Below the pieces are notes generated by a model. The model ran no database searches. It was not told where the DNA came from and saw only the letters and a program-made list of their open reading frames with translations. From Siphonobacter aquaeclarae (GTDB lineage Bacteria; Bacteroidota; Bacteroidia; Cytophagales; Spirosomataceae): 64,000 nt of DNA. Position numbers and translations under genes: made by a program. Shown piece after piece: positions 5,579 through 21,081 of the stretch. Positions within the stretch are counted from its first letter, which is position 1. Each line of letters opens with the position of its first letter. The stretch spans positions 124,001 to 188,000 of the forward strand of contig NZ_FNGS01000006.1 in assembly GCF_900103285.1 (NCBI RefSeq), read 5' to 3'.

Positions 5579-8500
5579 ATGAGGAAAACTCTACTTACCT
5601 TTTTGTATGCCATGCTGTGCTGTCTGCTCGCGGGAGTAGCCGGGGCACAGATTTCGCTGACGGGTAGTACCTATACCGAGAACTTTAATTTTCTGCCTTC
5701 TACCGGATCCCCGACTTGGCAGAATAATGCCAACGGAGATGGGGCCTCCACCTTTGGCAAGGTGGGCGTTTATGGCAGCCGGACCGGAACAGGTACGACT
5801 ATCCTGACAGGAACCGGAAGCAGCAACTCTGGTGGACTGTACTCTTTCGGGACAGACTCTGACCGTGCTCTTGGTTCGATTGGTTCGTCCAATGCCGCTG
5901 CCGGCAATTTTGCTTATGCGCTTCGTTTTGTCAACAATACCGGCGCTATCGTAACGTCCTTTAACCTTTCCTACTACGGAGAGCAGTGGCGGGTCGCGGC
6001 GACTACACCCAATACTGCTACGTTTTCATACAAAACGGGTGCTTTTACCAGTGTTGATCCTGCTTCTGCGCTTCCGGCCGGGTATACCGCTGTTTCAGCA
6101 CTGGACTTTACGTCGCCGGTGACCGGAAGTACCGCCGGAGCGCTAAACGGAAACCTGGCAGCTAACCGCGTCCTGATTTCAAGTTCCGTCAGCAATTTGC
6201 AGGTATTGCCGGGAGAGGAGATTGTCCTTCGTTGGTATGATCCCGATCACACCGGTGCCGATCAGGGACTTTCGATCGATGATGTAACCATCACGATAAC
6301 GACACAGTCAGCTTCGACCCCGGTTCTTACGTCTTCTGTCGCTTCATTGACCGGCTTTACGTATGTCGAAGGCGCTGCGACGTCTCCGGCTCAGTCTTAC
6401 ACGCTTTCCGGTTCCAATCTTGCGGCCGGTCCGATTGTCGTGACGGCTCCCGCCAACTACGAAGTCTCGCATGATGGAACGACTTTCCAGGATACCCTCA
6501 CTATTGTGTATTCCGATTCGACGCTCGCGTCGACGCCGGTATATGTGCGCCTTAAGCTGGGCCTGACCCCGGGTATGTACCCGCCGTCCGGTACGATCGC
6601 CGTGACCAACGCCGGCGGCTCCGCTTCCAAGGATGTTACCGTGAGCGGCGCGGTTTCTCCGGCTCCTACCGGCGACAGTCCCTGCGGTGCGACTTCCGTG
6701 TCCATTCTTTCAACCCGTAACGGAACCGTCGGCGGTACTTTTACCATCACCGGCCGTGTCACAGCGATTTTCTCTTCCACCAATATCTACATTCAGGACG
6801 CCACCGGCGGTATCCTTATTTATGACCAGAACGGTATTCAGCCGGAAGGTATCGCTGTCGGCGATGAAGTACAGGTAACCGGTGCTCTTGCTCTTTATAA
6901 TACAGAGAAGGAACTGAAAGACCTGACTTGCTTCAAGAAGACGACGTCTGCCAACAGCCCGGTCTCTCCGCTGCTGGTGACAGCTGCCGAAATCTGCAAC
7001 CACCAGGGTGAACTGATTACGCTGGATGAAGATGTGACGATTACGAGTCCGACCGGCGCGACCTTTGCTTCCGCCAACACCAACTATACGCTGAGCAACT
7101 CCCAGATCATGCGCGTGTTGGGTACGACCAACCTCGCCGGTGCTACCCGCCCGGCCGGTACTTTCAAGCCTACCGGCGTGGTGACGATTTTCAATAGTGT
7201 CTGCCAGATTCTGCCGCGGTCGACCGACGACGTACCCGGCTCTACCCCGATGGCGGGAGGAAGCTGCGGAACGGCGACCGTCGCCACCGATGAAAAGAAA
7301 CTTGACGTCACCAACTGGAACGTCGAATGGCTCGGCAATACCGGTTTCGGTCCGACGAACGAAACCACCCAGCTCAACAACGTCAAGACAGTACTCAACG
7401 GCATTGGTTCCGACGTCTTCATGCTGGAAGAAGTGTGCAGCTATAACCCCGCAAATCCGGCGGATCCGTCGACGTCCTTCGGTTCCATTCTTCAGGGACT
7501 CAACGCTACGTTCCCTACGCGCCTGTACGCCGGCGAATGCTCCAACCGGTATTCCTACTCTGAAATCGCGAGCCCTGATCCCTTCGGCCAGCGGGTATGT
7601 ATCATCTACCGGACGGACCAGATCACGAAAATCGCATCCCGCCCGATGCTGACCAACGCGGTCATTACCGGTTTTCCGACGGGTAACAACTCCCAGTTCT
7701 GGGCTTCCGGACGTTTGCCGTTCCTGTTCCAGGCCGATGTTAAACTTCAGGACGCGACGGAAGCAACGCGGATCAACTTCATCGTTCTTCACGCGAAATC
7801 AGGCTCTGATCAGAGCTCGTACGACCGTCGTGTGTACGACTTCAAAGTACTCTATGATTCGCTTCAGACGCAGTTTCAGTCTGCCAATGTGATCATGGGT
7901 GGTGACTTCAACGACGACGTCGATCAGTCAATCGCCGGAACCGGTCAGATTTCCAGCCTGAAGGCGTTTTTGTATGCGAACCCGACGACTACCAACATCA
8001 ACGATACCCGCCCGAATGCCGGCTGGAATTGCGTCACGCAGGTATTTAGCACGGCCGGTTGCGCCAGCACGGCAAGCTACTCGGATTTCATCGATCACCT
8101 TTTTGTATCGGACGAAATCTCGAACCCCGCGCCGGGTGGCCGTACCCTGGCTACTTCCGTTGCCGTGAGTAATGTGGCCTCGCTGCGCCCGTCTGTCAGC
8201 GGATACGCTTCCAATACCTCTGACCACTATCCGACTGCTACCCAGTACAGCATTACCGCCGAAAACCCGACGCCGGTGACCTGGCTCAACGTTTCAGCGG
8301 AGGTTTCTGCCACGCAGCAGGTTACGGTACGCTGGAGTACTGCTTCCGAGCGCAATGCCAGCCATTTTGAAGTACAGCGCAGCAAGGACGCCCGGACGTT
8401 CGAATCACTCGGTACGGTAAAAGCCGGCAGTACGGTTCAGACCCGCAGCGATTATTCCTTTGCCGATGCCGCGCCGTTCGACGGCGTGAACTACTACCGC

Positions 8501-8779
8501 CTCAAGCAGGTAGATGCCGATGGCAAGACGGACTATTCCCGTGTGGCCTCGGTGGAAGTAACCGGTACCTATGCCGTGTCTCCGAACCCGGTTGGATCAC
8601 GCATTGTCGTGACAGGTAAGAACATCGCCGGTCTCCGGTTGTTCGATCTCCAGGGCCGTCAGATCGGCCGGAGCGACGAAGCTTCGCTCGAAGCCCACAA
8701 CCTGACGCCGGGCACTTATCTCGTTGAAATCCGCCGCACAGACGGTATTACTGTCCGCCGGTTGATTATCAAGCAGTAA
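5579..8779 (+). CDS. Secreted endonuclease/exonuclease/phosphatase-family protein with T9SS sorting domain
   Basis: A 1066-residue exported protein. Start 5579 is chosen because MRKTLLTFLYAMLCCLLAG is a clean signal peptide (cleavage near GAQ) and the -7 box lies after the longer alternative start. Domains in order: a beta-sandwich (about 25-230), an Ig-like unit (about 245-360), an OB-fold DUF5689-like domain (about 375-450), an EEP nuclease-like domain (about 570-890) with TNWNVEWLG, MLEEVC, GGDFNDD and SDHYP motifs, a fibronectin-III-like linker, and a C-terminal type IX sorting domain beginning SPNPVGSR and ending in RRLIIKQ. The metal-binding Glu, Asp/Asn and final Asp-His are visible, so a phosphodiesterase or nuclease is expected to be active outside the cell or on its surface. 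It may serve phosphate or DNA scavenging. The next gene shares the same linker and tail. Confidence 0.88.
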   Translation: MRKTLLTFLYAMLCCLLAGVAGAQISLTGSTYTENFNFLPSTGSPTWQNNANGDGASTFGKVGVYGSRTGTGTTILTGTGSSNSGGLYSFGTDSDRALGSIGSSNAAAGNFAYALRFVNNTGAIVTSFNLSYYGEQWRVAATTPNTATFSYKTGAFTSVDPASALPAGYTAVSALDFTSPVTGSTAGALNGNLAANRVLISSSVSNLQVLPGEEIVLRWYDPDHTGADQGLSIDDVTITITTQSASTPVLTSSVASLTGFTYVEGAATSPAQSYTLSGSNLAAGPIVVTAPANYEVSHDGTTFQDTLTIVYSDSTLASTPVYVRLKLGLTPGMYPPSGTIAVTNAGGSASKDVTVSGAVSPAPTGDSPCGATSVSILSTRNGTVGGTFTITGRVTAIFSSTNIYIQDATGGILIYDQNGIQPEGIAVGDEVQVTGALALYNTEKELKDLTCFKKTTSANSPVSPLLVTAAEICNHQGELITLDEDVTITSPTGATFASANTNYTLSNSQIMRVLGTTNLAGATRPAGTFKPTGVVTIFNSVCQILPRSTDDVPGSTPMAGGSCGTATVATDEKKLDVTNWNVEWLGNTGFGPTNETTQLNNVKTVLNGIGSDVFMLEEVCSYNPANPADPSTSFGSILQGLNATFPTRLYAGECSNRYSYSEIASPDPFGQRVCIIYRTDQITKIASRPMLTNAVITGFPTGNNSQFWASGRLPFLFQADVKLQDATEATRINFIVLHAKSGSDQSSYDRRVYDFKVLYDSLQTQFQSANVIMGGDFNDDVDQSIAGTGQISSLKAFLYANPTTTNINDTRPNAGWNCVTQVFSTAGCASTASYSDFIDHLFVSDEISNPAPGGRTLATSVAVSNVASLRPSVSGYASNTSDHYPTATQYSITAENPTPVTWLNVSAEVSATQQVTVRWSTASERNASHFEVQRSKDARTFESLGTVKAGSTVQTRSDYSFADAAPFDGVNYYRLKQVDADGKTDYSRVASVEVTGTYAVSPNPVGSRIVVTGKNIAGLRLFDLQGRQIGRSDEASLEAHNLTPGTYLVEIRRTDGITVRRLIIKQ

Positions 8780-8812
8780 CGATTAAGTTTTTATAGTTTT
8801 TCCTTGGATTCC

Positions 8813-8857
8813 GGGGGGCTTTTATCGACTTTTGATAAGAGCTCCCCGCTCTTTTTC
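8813..8857 (+). terminator. Probable terminator between the two T9SS genes
   Basis: Imperfect stem GGGGGGCTTTTATC with GATAAGAGCTCCCC (7-base loop, some G-U pairs), followed by CTCTTTTTC. It suggests the next gene has separate or reduced expression. Confidence 0.55.
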
Positions 8858-8878
8858 CCACCCTTCAACTAAAAAGAA

Positions 8879-10027
8879 ATGATCAGATCACTACCAGTTT
8901 TCCTGGCGGGTATGCTGCTGCCCGTTTGCGTCGCTGCTCAGACGCTCGTTCAATGGAACTTCAATACGCCGGATTCGGATAACGCCACCGGGACGACGAG
9001 CCCGTCGACCGGAACGGGTACCATTCTGGCTGTCGGCGGGACGACTGCGCCGACCACGACCGGCTTCGGCCGCGGCAACTCCAACGGCGGATCGACTGAC
9101 CCGGCGGCGGATGCGGACGACAGCGGCTGGCCGGTTTCCAATTTCCCTGTGCAGGGTACGGCGGATAAGACCGCAGGTATCGAAATCCAGGTGAGTACGC
9201 TGGGATATAATCAGATTACGGTATCATGGGATCAGCGGCACAGTAACTCGTCGCCGGCCAACCTGATTTTACAGTATTCGACCGACGGCGGAGCAAACTG
9301 GATTGATTCGGACGCCTTTGCCGCCAATGCCGGCGATACCTGGTTTAACAGCCGCACCAAAAGCTTCGCGGCTGTGACGGCGTTGAATAACAACCCGAAC
9401 GTCCGTTTCCGGATTTTGGCAGTACTTTCCGGCGGCGCTTACGCAGGTTCAGGAGGAGCATATGCCACGACCGGCAACTGGCGCTTCGATATGGTGACGG
9501 TGACCGGAACGCCGCTGCCGCTGCCTGTTTCGCTGGTATCGTTCAGCGGCAGGGCGGTGGGAGAGTCGGTCTCGCTGGAATGGAAGACCGCTTCGGAAAA
9601 GAATAACAGCCATTTCGTGGTTGAGCGCGCTGTGGATGCCCGGACCTTCGAATCAATCGGTACGGTGCCGGGCCGCGGTACCTCGGCGGTTTCTCAGCTG
9701 TATCAGTACACCGATCGCCAACCCGAAGCCGGTGTGAACTACTACCGTCTCAGGCAGGTAGACGCCGATGGAACGGTTGACTACCTGCGGGTTATTTCCG
9801 TGGAAACCGCCGGCGCTTTCGACCCGTATCCCAACCCGGCTACAGACCGTGTGCAAGTGAAAGGAGGACGTGTTCGCGCGCTGATGCTGCATTCATTGCA
9901 AGGACAGCTCCTTGGCCGGTCCGACAGCCGCGAAATCGCCATTGGCCATTTGCCGCCCGGTGCATACCTGCTTCGTACTTACCTGGAAACCGGGGAGTTT
10001 GCCAGTCGTCTGGTAGTAAAAAAATAA
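8879..10027 (+). CDS. Secreted T9SS sorting-domain protein
   Basis: A 382-residue protein with signal peptide MIRSLPVFLAGMLLPVCVAA. A beta-rich N-terminal domain (about 20-215) opens QTLVQWNFNTPDSDNATG and contains ISWDQR-like and GNWRFDMVTVTG strands, resembling lectin/jelly-roll modules common in Bacteroidota. A fibronectin-like linker (about 220-310) is nearly the same as that of the preceding gene (VDARTFESIGTV against KDARTFESLGTV). The C-terminal sorting domain starts PYPNPATDR and ends in SRLVVKK. It lacks any visible catalytic motif. It probably forms a pair with the upstream secreted nuclease by duplication of the tail. Export by the type IX system is well supported; binding target is unknown. 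Confidence 0.8.
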   Translation: MIRSLPVFLAGMLLPVCVAAQTLVQWNFNTPDSDNATGTTSPSTGTGTILAVGGTTAPTTTGFGRGNSNGGSTDPAADADDSGWPVSNFPVQGTADKTAGIEIQVSTLGYNQITVSWDQRHSNSSPANLILQYSTDGGANWIDSDAFAANAGDTWFNSRTKSFAAVTALNNNPNVRFRILAVLSGGAYAGSGGAYATTGNWRFDMVTVTGTPLPLPVSLVSFSGRAVGESVSLEWKTASEKNNSHFVVERAVDARTFESIGTVPGRGTSAVSQLYQYTDRQPEAGVNYYRLRQVDADGTVDYLRVISVETAGAFDPYPNPATDRVQVKGGRVRALMLHSLQGQLLGRSDSREIAIGHLPPGAYLLRTYLETGEFASRLVVKK

Positions 10028-10050
10028 CGAATTTCAGTCAGATTACCGGA

Positions 10051-10084
10051 AGCCGGAGCGGGTACTACCTGCTCCGGCTTTTTC
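10051..10084 (+). terminator. Rho-independent terminator
   Basis: AGCCGGAGC/GCTCCGGCT stem followed by TTTTTCC, 24 bases after the stop of the second T9SS gene. Confidence 0.85.
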
Positions 10085-10199
10085 CGTTTTGGATGTGAAC
10101 TGATGGAAAATGACAGTGAACGACCAGGTAAATATTGATTTAAGTTAAAATCGGTCAAACCTTTTGACAGTAACATCCGTAATTATTGCTACTCGTACT

Positions 10200-10207
10200 T
10201 ATGTTTG
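10200..10207 (+). promoter_or_regulatory. -7 box for the SGNH-like gene
   Basis: TATGTTTG matches TAnnTTTG, 44 bases before the chosen start at 10251. It falls inside the longer open frame from 10164, which argues for the downstream ATG. Confidence 0.45.
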
Positions 10208-10250
10208 TTTAGGCTACTTATCTCGATCCGTTCGCCGCAAACTCAGATTT

Positions 10251-11696
10251 ATGACTTTCTTCAGGAAATTACTCCTGTTGCTGGCCGTATTGGCCGGCAA
10301 TCTGTGTTACGCGCAGATTGTTGTCACCTATCCGGTTCCCCGGATTGTTGTGCAGCGCAATAACTCCAATCAGGCTTTGCTTTATGTTACCGGGCGCGTT
10401 TCCCAGCCGGCTGACAGAATGGAAATCCGGTTTATTCCCCGTGCCGGAGAAGGCGGCACTGCCATTGACTGGACCCTGCTTCAGAACCAGCCTACGGGTG
10501 GTATTTTCTATGGCGCTGTCACCGTCACCGGCGGGCGGTATGACCTGGAAATCCGGGCGATCAAGAACAATGCGGTCTCCGGAGCCGTCACCCGTGTAGA
10601 GAAAGTAGGAGTAGGCGAGGTATTCCTCATCGCCGGACACTCCAACGCGGCCGGCGGGTACAGCCCGACCATCGACTATGCCTATGGCGACCAGTACAAG
10701 GACCGGGTCAATACCATCCATGTCGGCGACTATTACGGAACCTGGGATAAATACTGGAACTCGGGAGATCCGTCGTTTCTGCCAAGTTTTCAGCCTACCC
10801 AGCTCTGTGATACCTGCGGAATCGCTCCGGGCGTGAGTATGCGCTGGTTCTGGGGACGGACAGGGGAACTGATTGTGAAAAATCTCAATGTTCCGGTATT
10901 GTTTTACAGTTCGGCGTTCGGTGGAACAAACATCGAGCAGCTCTATAAATCAGCCTATGACATACCGTTTGACCACGGTTTTGTGAAGTATGAATACCGG
11001 TTTCCCTATACGCACATACGGGCAGCGATCAAGAAGTACATTCCGTTTACGGGTCTCCGTGCGGTGCTGTGCGGGCACGGTGTGAACGACCGGAATAACT
11101 ACGGGCAGGACTTCAAATTCCAGTATGAAAAAGTAATCGACAAGTCCCGGGAAGAAACAGGCTATCCCGACCTGGCCTGGATGGTGGCGACGGAGTGTTA
11201 CATCAACGGCGAATGCTGGGGGCAATGGGCGCCGGGCAGCTCGGTCGAACGGCATATTACCCGGGCGCAGGACGAGCTCGTCGCGCAGAAACCGGAAGTA
11301 TACAAAGGCGCGCAACTGAACCTGATTCTGAATGACGGCCGGAACGAAGATGCCCTGCACTTCAACCAGACGGGTCAGTCAAAAGCCGCAGAATACTGGC
11401 GGCAGGCGGTTATGAGTGAGAACAATCCTTCCAAAAACTTCCTAACGTCTTCCAAGCCGCTGATGGCGAAGGTACAGCCGCCGGTTATACCTGCTTTTAA
11501 CATCGCTTCGGTGCAATCGGGTGATTGGGATAACGCTGCCACGTGGGACTGCAAGTGCATTCCGAGTTATGCGTCGACCGTCACTGTTAGCGCCGGCCAT
11601 ACCGTCGCGATCGATGGCAACGTCTTCGCCCGGAATATCATCAACCGTGGCAAGGTGGAGTATAAAACTAAGGCCGTCGTGCAGTTGAGCCAATAG
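10251..11696 (+). CDS. Secreted SGNH-hydrolase-like esterase with C-terminal beta module
   Basis: 481 residues from the ATG at 10251, giving signal peptide MTFFRKLLLLLAVLAGNLCY then AQIV. After an N-terminal beta domain, the hydrolase part shows block I GHSNA (Ser near 129), the GHGVND motif near 274, and a late EDALHFN motif with Asp367 and His370, the D-x-x-H pair of SGNH esterases. This resembles sialate O-acetylesterase or other carbohydrate esterases. The last 70 residues (SVQSGDWDNAATWD, then AGHTVAIDG) form the G-x-W repeat-like beta module often found at the end of Bacteroidota exported proteins. There is no T9SS tail of the common type. Substrate is unknown; deacylation of a glycan is the best guess. 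Confidence 0.75.
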   Translation: MTFFRKLLLLLAVLAGNLCYAQIVVTYPVPRIVVQRNNSNQALLYVTGRVSQPADRMEIRFIPRAGEGGTAIDWTLLQNQPTGGIFYGAVTVTGGRYDLEIRAIKNNAVSGAVTRVEKVGVGEVFLIAGHSNAAGGYSPTIDYAYGDQYKDRVNTIHVGDYYGTWDKYWNSGDPSFLPSFQPTQLCDTCGIAPGVSMRWFWGRTGELIVKNLNVPVLFYSSAFGGTNIEQLYKSAYDIPFDHGFVKYEYRFPYTHIRAAIKKYIPFTGLRAVLCGHGVNDRNNYGQDFKFQYEKVIDKSREETGYPDLAWMVATECYINGECWGQWAPGSSVERHITRAQDELVAQKPEVYKGAQLNLILNDGRNEDALHFNQTGQSKAAEYWRQAVMSENNPSKNFLTSSKPLMAKVQPPVIPAFNIASVQSGDWDNAATWDCKCIPSYASTVTVSAGHTVAIDGNVFARNIINRGKVEYKTKAVVQLSQ

Positions 11697-11813
11697 ATCG
11701 TTGGTTTCTTCGTTGTTTTCAATAGGTTTCTTCCGGGAGAGGTATCTGACAGGAAATTGTCGGATAATTTTTCCCGTTCATCATCGTTTACAGAAAGAAT
11801 AGGAAGTAATTGC

Positions 11814-11821
11814 TATCTTCG
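11814..11821 (+). promoter_or_regulatory. Possible -7 box for the FKBP gene
   Basis: TATCTTCG, one base off TAnnTTTG, about 57 bases before the ATG at 11878. Weak evidence. Confidence 0.3.
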
Positions 11822-11877
11822 TTTATTATTCTTTTGTCACTTCTAATTGACTGAACCGATCCGGTAACGTCCTTTTC

Positions 11878-12633
11878 ATGAAAAAAACGAGTATCGCTGT
11901 TCTGCTGGCGGCTTTTTCCCTGCCGGCTCTGGCTCAAACCAAGAAACCCGCTCCGAAACCTGCTGTCAAGAAACCGGTTGCCGCTGTTGCTCCCTCCTTT
12001 AAAAGTCCGATGGACTCCGTGAGCTACGCCATCGGGATGGATATCGCCAAAAACCTCAAGAACCCTTCCCTCAGCAACCTGAATTTTGACCTCGTGGCCA
12101 AGGCCGTTCTGGATTCCAAAGCCGGAAAATTTGCATTGACCGACGCCGAGTACCAGAACTGCCTGACCAATTTCAGTCAGCAGATGCGGGCGAAGCAGGC
12201 AGAAGAGCAGGCCAAGACTCAGGCCGAAAATGCCAAAAAGTACGAACCCAATAAACTGGCCGGTGAAAAATTCCTGGCTGAGAACAAAACCAAGGACAGC
12301 GTCGTTACATTGCCGAGCGGTCTCCAGTATAAAGTTATCAAACTGGGAACCGGCGCCAAGCCGACGCTGAGCGATAAGGTTAAAACGCATTACCACGGTA
12401 CCCTGATCGACGGCACGGTATTTGACAGCTCAGTGCAGCGGGGCGAACCGATCAGCTTCCCCCTCAACGGTGTCATTCAGGGTTGGCAGGAAGGGCTCCA
12501 GCAAATGCCGGTTGGTTCCAAATACCGGTTGTTTGTGCCTTATCAGCTTGCCTACGGAGAACGTGCGACGGGTTCCATCCCTCCATATTCAGTCCTGATT
12601 TTCGATGTAGAATTGCTCGACATCGAGAAATAG
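11878..12633 (+). CDS. FKBP-type peptidyl-prolyl cis-trans isomerase, exported
   Basis: A 251-residue protein with signal peptide MKKTSIAVLLAAFSLPALAQ, a short Lys/Pro/Ala linker, a helical dimerisation domain (about 40-135) starting MDSVSYAIGMDIAKNL, and a C-terminal FKBP domain (about 140-251) with VKTHYHGTLIDGTVFDSS, the QGWQEGL motif and AYGER. This is the FkpA/Mip architecture: a periplasmic proline isomerase and chaperone for outer-membrane protein folding. Length is typical. The tail-specific protease gene follows 64 bases later on the same strand, so the two may share a periplasmic quality-control role. Confidence 0.93.
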   Translation: MKKTSIAVLLAAFSLPALAQTKKPAPKPAVKKPVAAVAPSFKSPMDSVSYAIGMDIAKNLKNPSLSNLNFDLVAKAVLDSKAGKFALTDAEYQNCLTNFSQQMRAKQAEEQAKTQAENAKKYEPNKLAGEKFLAENKTKDSVVTLPSGLQYKVIKLGTGAKPTLSDKVKTHYHGTLIDGTVFDSSVQRGEPISFPLNGVIQGWQEGLQQMPVGSKYRLFVPYQLAYGERATGSIPPYSVLIFDVELLDIEK

Positions 12634-12697
12634 GCCGAACCAGTGTCCAGTCAGGAATGGACGTTTCAACGGCTGCGCGCCTTTAGATAACAGCAAG

Positions 12698-14851
12698 ATG
12701 TCTATGAAAAGCTATTTGCTCGCCTTTGTGCCACTAGTGTTGCTGGGTTTTCAGCCGGAACATCCGATTTCGGCCCAGAAGCTGACATCCGATCAACCGG
12801 CTGTTCTGGTTCCCACCAACTCCCAAAAGGAAGTAGAGAAACTCGTTACCAGTATTCTCTCGTCCTACCATTACCGGCGCATGCCGCTTGATGATACGCT
12901 TTCCAATAAGGTATGGGATAATTACCTGAAAGAAATCGATAACGGCAAGGCCTATCTGCTGTCGTCCGACGTTCAGGCTTTTGAAAAATACCGGTACCAG
13001 ATCGACGATTACCTGCAGGCAGGGAATCTTACGCCGGCGTACGACCTGTTTAACTTGTTCATGAAGCGGTTTCATGAACGTATGGCGTATGTGAAGAAGC
13101 TGACCGACAAGCCGTTCGACTTCACCAAGGACGAAACCTATGAGACCAACCGCGACAAGGTCTCCTGGGCGCAATCCCCCGCCGAACTGGACGAACTCTG
13201 GCAAAAAATCATCAAGAGCCAGGCGCTGGACTACAAACTCCAGGGCAAGGCGGATACTGCCATCAACCGGACGCTGAAAGACCGCTATACCAACCTCGAA
13301 AAGCAGTTTTCGAAGGTGAAGAGCGAATACGTCTTCCAGACGTTCATGAACTCCTTTGCAGAGGTCATCGATCCGCACACCAACTACATGGCGCCGCCGG
13401 ATGCCTCGCGTTTCAAGGATGAAATGGCCCAGTCGTTTGAAGGGATCGGCGCCACGCTGACGCCGGAAAATGACTACACCAAAGTGCGCGAGCTCCTCGT
13501 GGGTGGTCCTGCGATGAAGAGCGGCCTCGTTCAGGTGAACGACCGCATCGTCGGCGTAGCCCAGGGCGAAGGCGGGCAGATGGTGGATGTGGTCGGCTGG
13601 AATCTCGATGACGTTGTCAAACTCATCCGTGGCCCCAAGGGCACGACGGTTCGCCTGAATATTCTCAAGGCGGATGCCGCTGCGGGTAGTCTTCCGAAAG
13701 AAATCAAAATCGTCCGCGACAAGATCAAGCTGGAAGAAGGCGTAGCCAAGGCGGAAGTCGTTCCGATGACCTTCGAAAAGAAAGAATACAAAATCGGCGT
13801 CATTACCCTCCCCGGTTTCTACCAGAACTACGAAGAAATGCGGAAGGGGGATAAGGATTATACGTCCACGACCCGCGACGTACAGCGTTTCCTCGATCAG
13901 TTCAAGGATCAGAAGGTGGACGGCGTAGTGCTCGATCTGCGCTACAACGGCGGCGGCTCGCTCGACGAAGCCATCAAGCTGACCGGCCTGTTTATCAAGC
14001 AGGGTCCTGTGGTTCAGGTGAAGGATGCGATGGGCCGGATTGATGTCGATGACGACACCGACCCCCAGCAGGTTTATGCCGGACCACTCGCGGTGCTCGT
14101 CAACCGCTTCAGCGCCTCGGCGTCTGAAATCTTCGCCGGCGCCATTCAGGATTACAAGCGCGGCGTGATCATCGGCGGTACGACGTATGGCAAGGGTACG
14201 GTTCAGCAATTGCTCGACCTCAACCAGTTCCTTCCCAAGGAGCCGGAAAAGGTAGGTCTGCTGAAGATGACCCGGGCGAAGTTCTACCGCATCACCGGTT
14301 CCAGTACCCAGCACAAAGGCGTGACGCCGGACATCGAACTTCCTTCCCGCTTCAGCGCCGAGGAGTTTGGCGAAAGCTCGCAGCCGACGGCCCTTCCCTG
14401 GGACCAGATCCGCTCGAGTACCTTCGTTCCGTATAACTCGGTGACGCCCGCAACGCTGGAAAAACTCCGCGAACGCTACGATCAGCGGTCTAAACTGGAT
14501 ACCGACCTGCTTCGCCTGAACTGGGAAGTAGCCGACTTCCAGAAGAACAAGGACAAGACCCTTGTCTCGCTCAACGAAGCGACGCGCCGCAAGGAAATCG
14601 AGGAGATGAAGAAGCGGAAAGAGGAACTGTCGAAGCTGAATGCGGGCAAAACAAACCCGTATGAAGTGGTCTTGCTGGGCGACAAGATTACCCAGCTCGG
14701 CGCGGCCGGCGGCGGAATGCCCGGCCAGGATGTGGCTTCGGCCAACACCCGGCAGAAAATGAAGGAAAACTTCATCGCCAAGTTCAAGGACGATGCCGAA
14801 TTGAAAGAAACAACGCGGATTCTCGCGGATCTGATTTCGATCAAGCAATAG
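12698..14851 (+). CDS. prc: Carboxy-terminal (tail-specific) processing protease, S41 family
   Basis: 717 residues with an N-terminal signal sequence (SYLLAFVPLVLLGF). The N-terminal helical domain is followed by a PDZ domain (about 245-330) and the S41 protease core. Catalytic Ser474 lies in NRFSASASEI and Lys499 in TTYGKGTVQ, spaced 25 residues as in E. coli Prc. The C-terminal Tsp-type helical domain has the long charged helix RRKEIEEMKKRKEEL. Length is near that of Prc (about 680). It degrades or trims periplasmic proteins from their C-termini. An ATG two codons inside (12704) is an alternative start. A terminator follows at 14868. Confidence 0.93.
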   Translation: MSMKSYLLAFVPLVLLGFQPEHPISAQKLTSDQPAVLVPTNSQKEVEKLVTSILSSYHYRRMPLDDTLSNKVWDNYLKEIDNGKAYLLSSDVQAFEKYRYQIDDYLQAGNLTPAYDLFNLFMKRFHERMAYVKKLTDKPFDFTKDETYETNRDKVSWAQSPAELDELWQKIIKSQALDYKLQGKADTAINRTLKDRYTNLEKQFSKVKSEYVFQTFMNSFAEVIDPHTNYMAPPDASRFKDEMAQSFEGIGATLTPENDYTKVRELLVGGPAMKSGLVQVNDRIVGVAQGEGGQMVDVVGWNLDDVVKLIRGPKGTTVRLNILKADAAAGSLPKEIKIVRDKIKLEEGVAKAEVVPMTFEKKEYKIGVITLPGFYQNYEEMRKGDKDYTSTTRDVQRFLDQFKDQKVDGVVLDLRYNGGGSLDEAIKLTGLFIKQGPVVQVKDAMGRIDVDDDTDPQQVYAGPLAVLVNRFSASASEIFAGAIQDYKRGVIIGGTTYGKGTVQQLLDLNQFLPKEPEKVGLLKMTRAKFYRITGSSTQHKGVTPDIELPSRFSAEEFGESSQPTALPWDQIRSSTFVPYNSVTPATLEKLRERYDQRSKLDTDLLRLNWEVADFQKNKDKTLVSLNEATRRKEIEEMKKRKEELSKLNAGKTNPYEVVLLGDKITQLGAAGGGMPGQDVASANTRQKMKENFIAKFKDDAELKETTRILADLISIKQ

Positions 14852-14974: not shown

Positions 14975-15721
14975 ATGCGCGCTGCATTACTTGCCCTGCT
15001 TTGTTCTACTATCTTTCTTTCCTTTACGATGACACCGCCGCCTGCTGATGGCCGCCTGTATGAAATGCGGGTGTACTATTCTCCTCAGGGAAAATTCCCG
15101 GATATTCTGGCCCGTTTTCGAAATCATACGACCAAGCTTTTCGAAAAACATGGCATGACGAACGTTGGGTACTTCACTCCGCTCGATAACCCGGATAGTT
15201 GCCTGATCTACTTCCTGTCGTACCCGAATAAAGCCGCGCGGGATTCTTCCTGGAAGGCTTTCGGCAACGATCCGGAGTGGAAGAAAGTAGTCGCCGAATC
15301 TGAGAAAAACGGAAAGATTGTGAATAAGGTGGAAAGCTATTTCCTCCACACGACCGACTATTCACCGGCGCTTCAGATTGATCAGAAAGGGAACCGGGTC
15401 TTTGAACTCCGTACCTATAAAACAACGCCGTATAACCTTGGCCTGCTGAATGCCCGCTTCCGGAATCATACCGTGAAACTGTTCGAAAAGCATGGCATGA
15501 CGAACGTTGTTTACTGGACCCGTGACAATGCCGACGACTACCTCGTCTACCTGCTGGCGCATAAAAACAAAGCAGCCGGCCTGGCTTCGTTCGCTTCTTT
15601 TGTGAAAGATCCCGCCTGGGTGACAGCTAAAAGTGCTTCCGAAACGCTCGGCGGCGGTCCGATCACGGAGAATATCCGGTCGGTATATATGGTACCGACG
15701 GACTTTTCGCCGATGAAGTAA
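14975..15721 (+). CDS. NIPSNAP-family protein with two tandem NIPSNAP domains
   Basis: A 248-residue protein with an N-terminal signal segment (LLALLCSTIFLSF). Two similar halves follow: residues about 28-125 start RLYEMRVYYSPQGKFPDI and residues about 135-245 start RVFELRTYKTTPYNLGLL. Each contains ARFRNHTxKLFEKHGMTNV, almost identical between the halves, so the gene arose by internal duplication. NIPSNAP is a ferredoxin-like dimeric fold with no firmly established enzymatic role in bacteria; such proteins are common in Bacteroidota near carbohydrate-use genes. Export is predicted from the N-terminus. Flanked by terminators on both sides, it is probably monocistronic. Confidence 0.88.
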   Translation: MRAALLALLCSTIFLSFTMTPPPADGRLYEMRVYYSPQGKFPDILARFRNHTTKLFEKHGMTNVGYFTPLDNPDSCLIYFLSYPNKAARDSSWKAFGNDPEWKKVVAESEKNGKIVNKVESYFLHTTDYSPALQIDQKGNRVFELRTYKTTPYNLGLLNARFRNHTVKLFEKHGMTNVVYWTRDNADDYLVYLLAHKNKAAGLASFASFVKDPAWVTAKSASETLGGGPITENIRSVYMVPTDFSPMK

Positions 15722-15864: not shown

Positions 15865-16242
15865 ATGACAGTCAATCAATTAAGCTTCCTCGTGCGGGGA
15901 GCGATCTTTACCGTATTCCGGGAGCTGGGCCCGGGCTTGTTTGAAAGTGTTTACCAGGCTGCATTGGCGTATGAACTTCGGAGTAAGGGACTTCTGGTAG
16001 AAGAACAGAAGCTTATCGGCGTTCAATACCGGGGAGTCGTTTTGGATCTGGGTTTCAAAGCAGACCTGGTGGTGGAAAACCAGCTTATCATCGAAATCAA
16101 GTCGGTCGAGTCGATTCACAATGTCCACAAAAAGCAATTGTTGACTTATTTGAGGCTTTCGCGGAAGAGGGTAGGCATCCTTGTCAACTTCAATGCGGCG
16201 GCAATTATCGACAAGGAAAGCCTGATCAGAGTCGTCAACTAA
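15865..16242 (+). CDS. GxxExxY protein
   Basis: 125 residues with GPGLFESVYQAALAYEL, the defining G-x-x-E-x-x-Y motif, and a PD-(D/E)xK-like core: FKADLVVENQLIIEIKSVE (Asp, Glu-x-Lys). Length is typical. The family is common in Bacteroidota and Planctomycetes, often near repeats; its function is not known, although the fold suggests nuclease ancestry. The stop codon is immediately followed, with no spacing, by a long perfect inverted repeat (16243-16308) built from TCTGTG units. No clear promoter motif was found upstream. The family call is sure, the function open. Confidence 0.9.
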   Translation: MTVNQLSFLVRGAIFTVFRELGPGLFESVYQAALAYELRSKGLLVEEQKLIGVQYRGVVLDLGFKADLVVENQLIIEIKSVESIHNVHKKQLLTYLRLSRKRVGILVNFNAAAIIDKESLIRVVN

Positions 16243-16308
16243 TTGTCTGTGTAGTCTGTGAAGTCTGTGTGCTTTTTTTCTCACAGACTTCACAGACTAC
16301 ACAGACAA
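16243..16308. repeat. TCTGTG-unit inverted repeat, copy 1
   Basis: 27-bp perfect arms (16243-16269 and 16282-16308) around a T-rich 12-base loop. Each arm has three 9-nt units (TCTGTGTAG, TCTGTGAAG, TCTGTG). Same family as the repeats at 24653, 24748 and 44653. Confidence 0.95.
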
Positions 16309-16350
16309 AATGCTGTGAGAAAGTCCCTTCTGGTTATTTACTTCGTATCC

Positions 16351-17166
16351 ATGAACTACCAGCTCTTCCCCGTCTCCCCCGAACTCCGCCCCTGGATACG
16401 CTATTTCTGGAGCTACGACGGCTTCGGGGACGGACGGCTGCATATCAGGTCCTTTGCTGACCCATACCCGCGGCTAATTTTTCAGGACACGCGGGAGTAT
16501 GCTCCGGTGGTCGATCAGGCCCGGGGCGTCATGCCCGTTGCCTACCTCAGCGGCATGGATACCCGGCCGACAAGCGCCTACTGGAACCGGCAGTTCTCTC
16601 ATTTTGGCGTCAGCTTTTACCCGCATGCCCTGCCGGTATTCTTCGGGATTTCGGCGACGGAACTGGTCAATGAAATGCCGGCCCTGAGCGATGTCGACCG
16701 CCGGGGTATGACTTCCCGCCTCGCCGACGCCCGCAACCACCGCGAGCGGGTCACCCTCCTGAGCCGCTATTTCCTTGAGCGCATCCAAACGCCGGATGCC
16801 GTTATACAGGAAGTATTCGACCGCAATACCCTTGTTCTGGAAGGCCTGAAGGGCATTGCAGCGAGCCATCGCCTGTCGCTCCGGCAGGTACAGCGGCGGT
16901 TCAAGGACCAGGTGGGCGTATCGGTCCGGACGTACCTCAAGCTGCAGCGTTTTGAGCAGGTATTGCAGCAACTATCCGGCGCGCGCTTCGGCGACCTGAC
17001 CCGGATTGCTTTCGAAGCCGGATATGCCGACCAGCCGCATTTCAACCGGGAATTCGCAGCGTTTTCCGGCCTGACGCCGTACCAGTTTCTCCGGGAGCAA
17101 ACGATGGGCTCGGAGAGTGCATCGTTTATCTATGCCGGCGACGATGTCGTTTCGATTCAAGTTTGA
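16351..17166 (+). CDS. AraC-family transcriptional regulator
   Basis: 271 residues from the ATG at 16351 (MNYQLFPVSPELRPWIRYFW). The open frame extends upstream through the inverted repeat, but that part encodes only low-complexity repeat residues, so it is not part of the protein. The N-terminal half is a DUF6597-like sensory domain common in Bacteroidota AraC proteins. The C-terminal half has the double helix-turn-helix: SLRQVQRRFKDQVGVSVRTY and then ARFGDLTRIAFEAGYADQPH with F-x-R-E-F and G-L-T-P-Y-Q-F. It binds DNA as an activator or repressor. Target genes cannot be told from context; the small lipoprotein downstream is one option. Confidence 0.9.
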   Translation: MNYQLFPVSPELRPWIRYFWSYDGFGDGRLHIRSFADPYPRLIFQDTREYAPVVDQARGVMPVAYLSGMDTRPTSAYWNRQFSHFGVSFYPHALPVFFGISATELVNEMPALSDVDRRGMTSRLADARNHRERVTLLSRYFLERIQTPDAVIQEVFDRNTLVLEGLKGIAASHRLSLRQVQRRFKDQVGVSVRTYLKLQRFEQVLQQLSGARFGDLTRIAFEAGYADQPHFNREFAAFSGLTPYQFLREQTMGSESASFIYAGDDVVSIQV

Positions 17167-17190
17167 CGGGGCAGGGCAGCGCTACTTTTG
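17162..17190 (+). promoter_or_regulatory. Promoter for the small lipoprotein gene
   Basis: TTTG at 17162-17165 and TACTTTTG at 17183-17190 with 17 bases between, a fair match to the Bacteroidota -33/-7 pair. It overlaps the stop of the AraC gene, and the ATG at 17214 lies 24 bases beyond. Confidence 0.55.
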
Positions 17191-17213
17191 CCCCGATCAT
17201 TCCCGTAAACGCC

Positions 17214-17606
17214 ATGAACCTTCGTTTTCTCCTGTTTTTTGTTGTCCTCCTGATGGGTTCCTGCAAGAAAGGCGCCGATACTCCGGACGGAGGCTATCCC
17301 AAAGAAGTCACGATCGAGTATAAACTGACAACGGTAAAGGGCAGCCTTTCGACCGCCGAGATGGTAGGCTACACCAACGAATCCGACGGCCGGACGACGC
17401 TCACGAACGTCTCCCTGCCGTTTAGCAAAACCATCAAACGGACCGTTAAATTCGGCGATATGCCGACGCTCTCGGTGTTTCACACCAATACCGGCGGCGC
17501 CTGCAGCATCAAAATGGAGATCCTGGTAAACGGCAAAGTAGCTAAAACCCAGACCGAAGAAACCACCGATCACCTCAACGGCGCCATGGTGTATCCTTTT
17601 GAATAG
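17214..17606 (+). CDS. Small lipoprotein of unknown function
   Basis: 130 residues from ATG 17214. The signal sequence MNLRFLLFFVVLLMGSC carries a lipobox (MGSC), so the mature protein would begin at a lipidated Cys17, then KKGADTPDGG. The rest is a small all-beta domain: EVTIEYKLTTVKGSLSTAEM, then a TVKFGD strand and ILVNGKVAKTQTEE. This resembles MmpS-like or other small beta-sandwich accessory lipoproteins in Bacteroidota, though I cannot name the family with certainty. A promoter (17162-17190) precedes it and a strong terminator follows, so it is an independent gene. Confidence 0.75.
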   Translation: MNLRFLLFFVVLLMGSCKKGADTPDGGYPKEVTIEYKLTTVKGSLSTAEMVGYTNESDGRTTLTNVSLPFSKTIKRTVKFGDMPTLSVFHTNTGGACSIKMEILVNGKVAKTQTEETTDHLNGAMVYPFE

Positions 17607-17637
17607 TTTCGCGTTCAACCCTTCCCACTATAGGCGG

Positions 17638-17805: not shown

Positions 17806-17813
17806 TATCTTTG
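17806..17813 (+). promoter_or_regulatory. -7 box for the XRE-ATPase cassette
   Basis: TATCTTTG, 22 bases before the ATG at 17835, an exact TAnnTTTG match; no TTTG at the usual -33 spacing. Confidence 0.5.
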
Positions 17814-17834
17814 TTGGGTAACACCTATCCGACT

Positions 17835-18248
17835 ATGTCTGAAAAACGCGTACACGAAGGGCGGAACGTCAAGCGCTTCCGCGAAATGCTGGGTATCAAA
17901 CAGGAAGCCCTCGCCGCCGAGCTAGGCTCCGACTGGAACCAGAAGAAAATCTCCCTTCTCGAAGCCCGCCAGGCCATCGACGAAGACATCCTCCACGACG
18001 TTGCCAAGGTATTGAAGGTACCGACGGAGGCGATTAAGAATTTTGATGAGGAGCAGGCGATTAATGTGATCTCGAATACCTTTCACGAAAATGCCTTTAT
18101 AGGTGTTTCCGGTGGTACTTACCATATTAATCCTGTAGAAAAGTGGATGGAGGCGCTGGAGGAGATTAAGCGATTGAATGCGGCGTTGTTGGAGGAGAAG
18201 GAGAGGTATATAGCGCTTTTAAGAGATATGAATAACGTTCGAAATTGA
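17835..18248 (+). CDS. XRE-family helix-turn-helix regulator
   Basis: 137 residues from ATG 17835, chosen because the promoter box ends 22 bases upstream and MSEKRVHEGRNVKRFREMLG is the family start. The HTH domain (about 8-70) reads LGIKQEALAAEL, then WNQKKISLLEARQAIDEDIL. A middle segment (AIKNFDEEQAINVISNTF) and a C-terminal coiled coil (EALEEIKRLNAALLEEKERY) follow. This type of regulator is common in Cytophagales. The first 195 bases have the base composition of the host, but the last 200 are clearly more AT-rich, approaching the next gene. It ends 13 bases before the ATPase start, so the two are co-transcribed and it may repress the pair. Confidence 0.88.
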   Translation: MSEKRVHEGRNVKRFREMLGIKQEALAAELGSDWNQKKISLLEARQAIDEDILHDVAKVLKVPTEAIKNFDEEQAINVISNTFHENAFIGVSGGTYHINPVEKWMEALEEIKRLNAALLEEKERYIALLRDMNNVRN

Positions 18249-18261
18249 ATGCCTGAGTAAA

Positions 18262-19995
18262 ATGATAAGGAAAATCACTATTGAAAATGTAAAGGGCATA
18301 TCTAAAAAGGAATTATCCTTAGATATAATACCTAATAAGCCAAGTATTTTAGTCGCGCCAAATGGCTTCGGTAAAAGTTCATTTGCTACTGCCTTTCGAA
18401 GAATGAATGGCAAGAGAATTAATTTATCTAAGAATGATTTTTTTAAAGAAGATGAAACTCTATCCCCCAGAGTAGAGTTGCTTATTAGGGATAGTAATGG
18501 ACATGAATTATCTCTTGAGGCAACTAAAAATAGTAATTCAATATTTGAAAATATCGATGTTTTTGTGATACATAGTATGATAAGACCAAAAGGAATACGT
18601 ACTCCGTTTGGCCCGGCAGCTGCCACACTTACTATAGATGATATAACTGTATTAAGGGGTATTCCTAAACGAGTTGAATATAACTATCGTATTAGTGAAT
18701 TTAAAAAAAAATTTGGCAAAAATGGAAAAGCTTTAGATAACTTATCTGACCTACTAAAAGAAAATAGCGCATTAATTGAAAAAATTGGGGAGCTGGCTTC
18801 TGAGTTTAAAAAGCAACAAAAAGAAACTGAAAAAAAAATAGATAATTGTATAAAAAGAATAAATGAATTTTCCGGAAAAATATCCGAAGTTAAAGAATTT
18901 GTAAATGAAAATATAATTCAGGATTTTAAGTCTATAAAATGTATAGAAAGAACTAAAGATGTCCTTGAGAATTACGGATTAATATACTCGACAGAAGCTG
19001 AATATTATCTGAGTGCAGTCCAGATATTTTGGATATATTGTGAAGATTCAACTCTTTTCAAGAAAGTTAGTTTGTATCACCAATATGAATCGGAGAAAAA
19101 GCGTCTTAAGCAACTACTTGATGATTTTAATAGCTCATGGTTAGAACTAGAGTTGGAAGAGACGGAAAGGACTTTGGTTGTGCGATTTCCGGATGTCGTT
19201 CATATGTCAAATGGGCAACGAGATATCTTGTCCTTAATCGCTCTTTTATTGAAAGCTAGGATTCAGTTGAAAAAGAAAATAGCCGTCTTGATATTAGACG
19301 AAGTATTTGACTACTTAGATGATGCAAATTTGATTGCTTCTCAGTATTTTATTTCGAAATTTATAGACCAATATAAACTTGATGGAGGCGAAATTTATCC
19401 ATTAATATTGACACATTTAGATCCTTATATTTTTCAAAATTATGTTTTTAGCAGCCAAAAAATATATTATCTTGATGACAGACCGTCAGATTATAGTCAT
19501 GCAATGCTAGAACTGGTAAAGAAAAGAAATGAGATTCAAATAAAAGAAGATGTTTCTAAATATTTGTTTCATTTTCATCCAACTAGAATAAATAAAAGAT
19601 CTGAATTTAAAGAATTAAAACTTAAAGAGACATGGGGAGAAGGGGATATTTTTTATACATTTATTTTTGAAGAATTGAGGAAATATATCTTAGGAGAAAA
19701 GTATTGTCCGCTATCAATTTGTTGCGCAATTAGAGTTAAAATAGAGAAAATTGTTTTTGAATCCCTTCCGAGTAATAGCGCAAAGAATGATTTTTTAGAG
19801 ACAAAGTCAACACGAGAGAAATTAGACCTTGCTCGAGAAAGATACGGAATTTCTGTTTCCGAAACGTACTATATTTTGGGGATGATTTACAATGAACCTA
19901 TGCATATTCGCCAAGGCGACTCGAGAATACCTGCCCTTGTAAGTAAGCTGGAAAATAAAGCAATTAGAACTATTATTAAGGAGGCCTTCGCGTAA
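18262..19995 (+). CDS. SMC-like ABC ATPase with uncharacterised C-terminal domain, AT-rich (possible defence protein)
   Basis: 577 residues. Walker A is VAPNGFGKSS (31-40), a coiled coil covers about 140-220, the ABC signature is MSNGQRDILSL (315-325), Walker B is AVLILDEVFDYLD (341-353), and the H-loop His is in LILTHLD (385). This is the organisation of RecF/SMC/OLD-like ATPases. Residues about 430-577 form an alpha-helical C-terminal domain with NEPMHIRQGDSRIPAL near the end; I do not recognise it, and no HNH, TOPRIM or nuclease motif is visible. Base composition is far more AT-rich than every neighbour and many codons are AT-ending, indicating recent transfer. It is coupled to an XRE gene and followed by a strong hairpin. 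Related architectures (OLD, RloC, PtuA, AriA) are antiphage proteins; that role here is inference. Confidence 0.85.
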   Translation: MIRKITIENVKGISKKELSLDIIPNKPSILVAPNGFGKSSFATAFRRMNGKRINLSKNDFFKEDETLSPRVELLIRDSNGHELSLEATKNSNSIFENIDVFVIHSMIRPKGIRTPFGPAAATLTIDDITVLRGIPKRVEYNYRISEFKKKFGKNGKALDNLSDLLKENSALIEKIGELASEFKKQQKETEKKIDNCIKRINEFSGKISEVKEFVNENIIQDFKSIKCIERTKDVLENYGLIYSTEAEYYLSAVQIFWIYCEDSTLFKKVSLYHQYESEKKRLKQLLDDFNSSWLELELEETERTLVVRFPDVVHMSNGQRDILSLIALLLKARIQLKKKIAVLILDEVFDYLDDANLIASQYFISKFIDQYKLDGGEIYPLILTHLDPYIFQNYVFSSQKIYYLDDRPSDYSHAMLELVKKRNEIQIKEDVSKYLFHFHPTRINKRSEFKELKLKETWGEGDIFYTFIFEELRKYILGEKYCPLSICCAIRVKIEKIVFESLPSNSAKNDFLETKSTREKLDLARERYGISVSETYYILGMIYNEPMHIRQGDSRIPALVSKLENKAIRTIIKEAFA

Positions 19996-20030
19996 AGAAA
20001 TGTAGTTGAGAGCTATTCATATGTTGCTTG

Positions 20031-20086
20031 GCTACAGACAAATGGATAGCAATTCACTAGATATCTTCATTTGTCTGTAGCTTTTG
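20031..20086. terminator. Hairpin closing the AT-rich cassette, probably bidirectional
   Basis: Perfect 14-bp arms GCTACAGACAAATG (20031-20044) and CATTTGTCTGTAGC (20068-20081) with a 23-base loop, then TTTT. It lies between the convergent ATPase and deacetylase genes and marks the right edge of the AT-rich block. Confidence 0.65.
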
Positions 20087-20091
20087 GCAAA

Positions 20092-21081
20092 TTACCTCAC
20101 CCCCTTCCTCCTCTCCTTCAACTCCTTAAACGTACTCAACACAATCCCGTTCTTCTCCATGTAGCTCTTCAATTCCGGGTCCATCATGGCGAGCATGTCG
20201 CCTTTGCGACTGTTGCCGGAGCCGGAGAAGTGGGAGAAGACCGGCGTGGGGTCGGTGCTGTGGACGATGATCATCGTCACGCCGGGCTGAGCCTTGTCGA
20301 GGATTTCGATGAATTTCTTCGTTTTGAAGGCGCGGAGGTTTTCGTCGGTCGGCTCCTGGCCGGCGGGGAGGTTCCAGCCGGTGTCGGCGAAGAGGTCGTC
20401 GAGCACAGGCAGGCCTGACGCCCAGAGTTTCTTGCCTACTTCCTGCGCCGCAGCGATGAGCTGGCCTTGTCCCTGGCCTTTGAGGCTGCTCGAAATCAGG
20501 GTATTATGCCCGCAGGGGAACATCACGGGAATCTTTTCTTCGATACCAACCTTCACATACCGCTCCACAAACTTCGGCGTGAAGAGCGTGCCCATGTGCG
20601 AATCAATGTGCGACGGCTCAATGCCAAACTGCCGGAAACGGGCTACCTGCTCGCGGATTTCCTTCTCCACATCGTCGGCAGAGCTATGCTGCACCACCTG
20701 CGCTACCTCGTGCCAGAGGCTGCCTTCCGGATCGTAGAGGGTAGGAGCCTTGTCTTTGCCGGAAAGGGGCTGCCAGCGGTAGGTTTTCCACTCGGAGGTG
20801 AGGGTGAGGTGTACGCCCACGTCCCACTTCGGGTTTTGCTTGTACAGCGCCATAAACTCCGGCACCCAGCCGCAGGGCATCATGACGGAGGTAGACGTAG
20901 CCACGCCTTCGTTGAGCGACTTCCGGGTGCCAACGTTCGAGTCGTAGCTCATGCCGGCGTCGTCGACGTGGAAAATGATGACTTTTTTACCTTTCGGAAA
21001 GCCGAGTTTTTCGGCATAGGTCTGCGCATTGGCGAGCTGGCAGGCGCCCGCCATCAGGAGGAGGAGGAGAGTGCGTTTCAT
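20092..21081 (-). CDS. ChbG/YdjC-family carbohydrate deacetylase, exported
   Basis: 329 residues with signal peptide MKRTLLLLLMAGACQLANAQ. The YdjC/ChbG fold is shown by HVDDAGMSYDSN (metal-binding Asp pair), VGVHLTLTSEW (His), and EPSHIDSHMGTLF (His-x-x-x-His). A late IIVHSTDP motif supplies another active-site His. Family members deacetylate N-acetylated sugars such as chitooligosaccharides; this copy is longer than cytoplasmic ChbG (about 250) and is exported, as in many Bacteroidota. It is downstream of murA but separated by a terminator (21115-21148), so it is probably transcribed alone. Specific substrate unknown. Confidence 0.88.
   Translation of the reverse strand: MKRTLLLLLMAGACQLANAQTYAEKLGFPKGKKVIIFHVDDAGMSYDSNVGTRKSLNEGVATSTSVMMPCGWVPEFMALYKQNPKWDVGVHLTLTSEWKTYRWQPLSGKDKAPTLYDPEGSLWHEVAQVVQHSSADDVEKEIREQVARFRQFGIEPSHIDSHMGTLFTPKFVERYVKVGIEEKIPVMFPCGHNTLISSSLKGQGQGQLIAAAQEVGKKLWASGLPVLDDLFADTGWNLPAGQEPTDENLRAFKTKKFIEILDKAQPGVTMIIVHSTDPTPVFSHFSGSGNSRKGDMLAMMDPELKSYMEKNGIVLSTFKELKERRKGVR

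Follow-up and report, generated by a model that had tools for sequence, protein, structure and literature searches.

The closest described counterparts of the system reported here are RloC (PF13166, AAA_13), in which an N-terminal SMC/Rad50-like ATPase is joined to a C-terminal R-x3-E-x(n)-H set with an Asn before the His, and PrrC of the type Ic EcoprrI system, an ATPase-HEPN protein with the same triad order found in or beside hsd operons. The motif that the two share is C-proximal and reads Arg-x3-Glu-x36-52-His (PMC2610378). We analysed a 64,000-nucleotide stretch of the Siphonobacter aquaeclarae genome (the window, G000:C13:124001-188000; genome G000, 6.19 Mb) that carries on its forward strand a 137-amino-acid (aa) XRE-type helix-turn-helix regulator of a multicopy family (17835..18248, start ATG at 17835) and a 577-aa SMC/Rad50-like ABC ATPase with a predicted C-terminal HEPN-like domain (18262..19995). 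The ATPase is probably an ABC-HEPN suicide RNase that acts as a single protein, in the way of PrrC and RloC. Its C-terminal domain itself looks like the effector, so the view taken in the initial annotation of this DNA, that such an ATPase needs other effectors, is probably wrong.

Other defence proteins share parts of this design. The prophage ABC-HEPN protein APECO1_4465 has an ABC ATPase with an HEPN tail, occurs in mobile islands and carries R-x3-E and N-x2-S-H (PMC3710099), and ERFG_01251, known here by description, combines an N-terminal ABC domain with MNT-type HEPN and HEPN/Toprim-NTD1. Rad50-like ATPase cores also serve in defence in Septu PtuA, PARIS AriA, the retron-Eco7/Ec78 ATPases and OLD, which rely on HNH or Toprim effectors (PMC12839542); tRNA cleavage is likewise the outcome in PARIS, Septu and a retron system. 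The excerpts of the literature searched hold no description of the present ATPase family or of its XRE link, and a 2020 classification of ABC ATPases (PMC7544218) may include the family.

Anatomy and spread of the ATPase family

Single-sequence searches returned proteins 43–44% identical from two genomes within its own bacterial family, 37% identical from two in a phylum sample and 30–33% identical on three plasmids (Brochothrix, Sinorhizobium and Agrobacterium); single-sequence scans of genome contigs, viral contigs and phage records were unproductive. A profile of eight sequences recovered 164 relatives in genome contigs (best 80 kept) and five in viral contigs. The resulting family set, plasmids included, comprises 88 loci and rests on the best 80 of those 164. 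The reading frame is intact at 84 loci (566–609 aa), broken at three (L062, L081 and L088) and cut by a contig end at one (L078), and an alignment of 85 proteins was made without these four. L072, a near copy of L071 by its neighbour pattern, was kept among the 85 and left out of neighbour counts; L022, L063 and L079 are the same genomes as G499, G320 and G265. A tree of 79 rows, 74 of them with an assigned phylum, covers 11 phyla; the phylum label changes 19 times on it, against a minimum possible of 10, and the window protein stands in it on a long branch whose nearest group is not sure.

The SMC/ABC motifs noted in the initial annotation are conserved across the 85 aligned proteins: Walker A (APNGFGKSS, residues 32–40, 18355..18381, plus strand; A32, N34, G35 and K38 in 85/85, the remaining residues in 79–84), the ABC signature (SNGQRD, residues 316–321, 19207..19224, plus strand; S316, N317, G318, R320 and D321 in 85/85) and the Walker B region (LILDEVFDYLD, residues 343–353, 19288..19320, plus strand; D346, E347, F349, D350, Y351 and D353 in 85/85). 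An AlphaFold2 model from 71 sequences has a predicted local distance difference test (pLDDT) score of 89.9. In the whole-protein Foldseek search, which the head dominates, the nearest solved folds of the head are SMC, Rad50, RecF and the defence ATPases PtuA and those of retrons. Pfam SMC_N matches 65 of 71 members, with the window protein below the cut-off. PADLOC gave the window protein no strong full-length model match, the best being mad3 (8e-8, residues 2–357) and AbiLi (2.6e-6, residues 1–352), both to the ATPase part; its PtuA model reached an E value of 0.002 across 43 residues only. A search of PDB sequences with the whole protein gave nothing useful.

The C-terminal domain (residues 424–577, 19531..19992, plus strand) is predicted to be all-helical, with a pLDDT of 94.8 when modelled alone, and its nearest solved folds are HEPN domains. 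No nuclease motif had been recognised in residues 430–577; the stretch in fact holds R491-x3-E495 (19732..19746, plus strand), present in 85/85 aligned proteins, and N544-x3-H548 (19891..19905, plus strand), with N544 in 84/85 and H548 in 85/85. The RloC/PrrC pattern is thereby present, the Glu-His spacer measuring 50–52 residues in 84/85 proteins (52 in the window protein) and 53 in one. The HEPN motif Rx4-6H is absent from the window protein, which has Y543-N544-x3-H548 and shows the RloC/PrrC-type set R491-x3-E495...N544-x3-H548 instead. Toprim was not found in the all-helical tail, and none of the four Pfam families that match one tail each (n = 79 tails) is Toprim; the tail profile against PDB sequences and a search of a viral structure library gave nothing useful.

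Several features set the family apart from its counterparts. RloC is 658–897 aa long (PMC2610378), against 566–609 aa here, and the present family has Met or Leu before the His. The window protein does not match PF13166 up to E = 1, and AAA_13 matches 3 of 71 family members at E ≤ 1e-3 (best 1.5e-4). The zinc-hook CxxC is absent from the window protein and occurs within residues 101–300 in 1 of 85 members. PrrC, compared by description only, has 341–416 aa and a Glu-His spacer of x31 (PMC2610378). For APECO1_4465 we used as a stand-in the 738-aa APEC O1 prophage ATPase APECO1_RS04465, an identity taken from its place; it matches an RloC-tail profile at 4.1e-36 and the window ATPase family profile at an E value of 1. 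BLASTP aligned it with the window protein at E = 0.036 over 41 residues, and an hhalign alignment to the family profile (51%, 1.5e-4) covered the ATPase and the beginning of the tail. Because PF13166 is not matched, the zinc hook is absent and the sequence relation lies at the edge of detection, we did not file the ATPase as a member of RloC or PrrC.

The fold of the head, with its likeness to Rad50, SMC and RecF and with PtuA and retron ATPases among the Foldseek matches, would also suit a DNA-directed SMC/OLD-like nuclease or repair ATPase whose helical tail serves in DNA binding or dimerisation. An all-helical tail whose invariant polar residues look catalytic makes this quite improbable, as does the lack of an HNH partner (PtuB) or Toprim partner among the window genes next to the ATPase, which are ChbG-like and then MurA, on the opposite strand (named by eye).

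An insertion between NIPSNAP-like and ChbG-like genes

The ATPase is found in 0/5 other genomes of the genus, making its own genome the sole carrier among six, and in the phylum sample it occurs in 3 of 390, its own among them (three candidates scored per genome). Its right-hand neighbour, a ChbG/YdjC-like gene (20092-21081, minus strand; named by eye), is present in four of the five (G001–G004). In all four it adjoins the NIPSNAP-like gene, with the last aligned codons 50–215 bases apart and the same outer genes, and a terminator-like hairpin with a T run, read by eye, lies between the two. In the window the NIPSNAP-like gene ends at 15721, 4.37 kilobases (kb) from the ChbG-like gene, and the entire segment 15722..20091 is an insertion by this genus comparison. 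The proposal that the cassette arrived by transfer is thus supported. That the ATPase is an AT-rich housekeeping SMC-like protein, as the SMC_N similarity of most members might suggest, is scarcely credible: the distribution already speaks against it, the gene being missing from every other genus genome and from nearly all of the phylum sample, and it sits in an insertion whose site is unoccupied in four relatives.

The island holds GxxExxY-like, AraC-type and lipoprotein-like genes followed by the XRE and ATPase genes (names by eye). The ATPase gene is, as first described, far more AT-rich than its surroundings, with a GC of 0.315 against 0.548 ± 0.026 for the remaining window (1-kb windows, z ~ −9) and a GC at third codon positions of 0.25 against 0.49–0.79 in nine neighbouring genes. 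Because the first three genes (15865-17607) have a host-like GC of 0.48–0.58, the island to which they belong may be layered or have grown in steps.

The two predicted genes were borne out as open reading frames (ORFs) on the same strand, separated by 13 bases (18249-18261). The promoter box proposed upstream was recovered by pattern match as TATCTTTG (17806..17813, plus strand), an instance of TAnnTTTG, which we take to be the Bacteroidota −7 consensus. Downstream of the ATPase gene, where a 14-bp hairpin had been claimed, a stable hairpin (approximately 20030..20082, plus strand) is a probable terminator (RNA −28.5 kcal/mol, z −5.9, 0/200 shuffles equally stable), with a centroid stem of 16 bp. 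It was also considered as the end of a repeated element, a candidate that we dropped; its 13-base arm has no other exact occurrence in the loci examined.

Two of 5426 complete E. coli genomes carry a relative of the Citrobacter member (73.5% at the DNA level), and at the one locus opened the ATPase relative lies in an integrase island adjoining ssrA.

The XRE regulator family

The XRE gene is a building block in its own right: it encodes a multicopy regulator, also present beside other defence cassettes. Copies number three in its own genome, five in G001 and ten in G427, and of 101 genomes from the bacterial family 18 have it at E ≤ 1e-20. We read 50 copies, from 57 places minus seven unfetched and a broken one (L174), plus an extra copy in L239; neighbouring ORFs were taken by a longest-ORF rule rather than a gene finder. 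In 48/50 copies AT content is higher in the second half of the gene than in the first, so the GC fall inside the window XRE is no evidence of a junction, and the reading of it as a recombination joint was dropped. GC is lower in the kilobase 3' of the gene than in the kilobase 5' in 34/50 copies (mean 0.409 against 0.448; Wilcoxon p 0.0017, a value too small because the copies are related).

Of the 89 other ATPase loci, only 2 were found to have a homologue of the window XRE, each time in convergent orientation, and the XRE family pairs with other cargo, so that an XRE-plus-ATPase module was too narrow a description. These same facts make it very improbable that the two genes form a toxin-antitoxin pair, with the ATPase silenced by the XRE protein, an arrangement that the 13-base gap, shared strand and single probable promoter would fit.

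Beside the second XRE copy of the own genome (L168, G000:C14:483500-497500, 6466-8866), 28 bases separate the regulator from an AT-rich CBASS pair, a CD-NTase-like cyclase and a TIR-STING effector. In L175 (G005, 6275-13290) the XRE is followed by AT-rich RdrA/RdrB (RADAR), with a convergent gene that is a cytosine methyltransferase by eye. Other copies adjoin AbiH (L206), a DUF1016/YhcG nuclease (L237), a zeta-toxin-like gene (L231) and a convergent GajB (L209). These named neighbours were chosen for AT-richness, and of the 12 proteins so chosen and scanned 4 matched nothing, or at least no named defence family. By protein, at least 10 of 73 downstream of XRE have a strong PADLOC match (four DUF1016-type, two with the GajB model, the cyclase, TIR-STING, RdrA and RdrB) against at most 8 of 63 upstream, a one-sidedness that is suggestive, not settled.

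Three AT-rich genes (432, 306 and 228 aa) behind the XRE of L234 (G427:C3, 6726-9653) are a candidate undescribed cassette; neither of the first two matches anything in Pfam (E up to 0.01) or PADLOC (E up to 1e-5). The third own-genome XRE (L169, G000:C18, 3974-8396) has upstream of it a MazG-like gene and a 742-aa AT-rich GIY-YIG/helicase-like gene (by eye).

Known counterparts of a regulator-before-defence layout are, reportedly, BrxR/CapW, and CapH-CapP, CapK-CapS and RptR (PMC13373217, PMC12255303). They resemble the XRE in placing a DNA-binding regulator directly upstream of differing defence systems; they are WYL, STAS/kinase or small repressors, whereas the regulator here belongs to an XRE family with up to ten copies per genome. 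The term 'XRE' is absent from the two defence-regulator papers searched for it.

Restriction genes beside the ATPase and its proposed action

Type I methylase- or specificity-type genes lie at 15 of 87 clustered loci (cluster labels from model counts and reading). All 25 such ORFs are upstream of the ATPase on its strand, within 100 bases at nine loci, and in three cases there is a 4-base overlap with the start of the ATPase; in L013, from the same bacterial family, the ATPase directly follows genes that read by eye as type I R, M and S. We compared a near set of 148 of 171 ORFs (the two nearest per locus, ≤2.5 kb) with a far set of a random 148 of 239 ORFs more than 5 kb away, both limited to 130–1300 aa. 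PADLOC specificity models match 8/148 near neighbours and are not among the models with at least two matches in the 148 far ones; Pfam agrees, with Methylase_S in eight near neighbours and N6_Mtase in four. The defence role proposed initially has support by association only, through the type I restriction genes, the sister XRE copies beside defence genes and the E. coli integrase island.

No type I methylase- or specificity-type gene occurs in the stretch read at 72/87 loci. PADLOC model matches at E ≤ 1e-8 number 564 near and 140 far, a contrast weaker than it appears since the far set also holds defence genes (type IV restriction, PglZ, SspE and others). Likewise, the 73 proteins downstream of XRE match 116 PADLOC models at E ≤ 1e-15 and the 63 upstream match 8, a count that overstates the difference because one protein matches many models. 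RloC itself stands at a type I or III locus in 8 of 72 cases (PMC2610378), and most ATPase loci here are similarly without the link. The loci lacking restriction genes would fit an ATPase-HEPN defence protein that cuts mRNA or other RNA, or only binds RNA, on a phage DNA or protein trigger with no restriction enzyme involved; HEPN domains of other families cut mRNA (PMC3710099). The conserved residue set is, however, that of anticodon nucleases, and we consider this alternative unlikely.

On the preferred reading, a suicide RNase acting like PrrC and RloC, the XRE protein would hold the operon low in an unthreatened cell while the ATPase head silences the HEPN tail. The SMC/Rad50-like head, with its short coiled coil, would sense DNA or the condition of a restriction enzyme, and an ATP-dependent change in it might be triggered by phage DNA, by DNA ends or by a failing partner restriction enzyme. 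The released HEPN-like tail (R491, E495, N544 and H548) would then cut host RNA, most likely tRNA, and the infected cell would stop translating.

We are almost evenly divided, leaning slightly against, on a broader joint picture. In it the ATPases form a class of their own, as yet unnamed, of compact ABC-HEPN enzymes that arrest translation, present in at least 11 phyla and repeatedly recruited by type I restriction operons. The multicopy Cytophagales-type XRE, on this picture, is a common regulator, or a landing pad offering a ready promoter, for defence cassettes that can be exchanged (CBASS, RADAR, Gabija, AbiH, DUF1016 and the ATPase). If it is true, PrrC and RloC are not isolated but joined by a further family with an SMC-like sensor and an HEPN RNase, sometimes beside restriction systems, and the long-standing question of how an ATPase head senses restriction failure can be tested with a single compact protein. 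Through the XRE link, the joint control of several suicide systems in one bacterium would become open to study, and the XRE gene would be a marker for finding undescribed defence cassettes.

Other genes stand beside individual relatives. The Agrobacterium member is preceded by a cytosine methyltransferase and an 89-aa ORF. In three Bacteroidota loci (L021, L029 and L034) a conserved 164-aa protein with a CMMCGNEKIRY stretch, a possible partner or sensor, ends 17–19 bases before the ATPase. On the Sinorhizobium plasmid (L009, 9685-13197) five consecutive TIR-domain genes lie downstream of the ATPase relative on the opposite strand.
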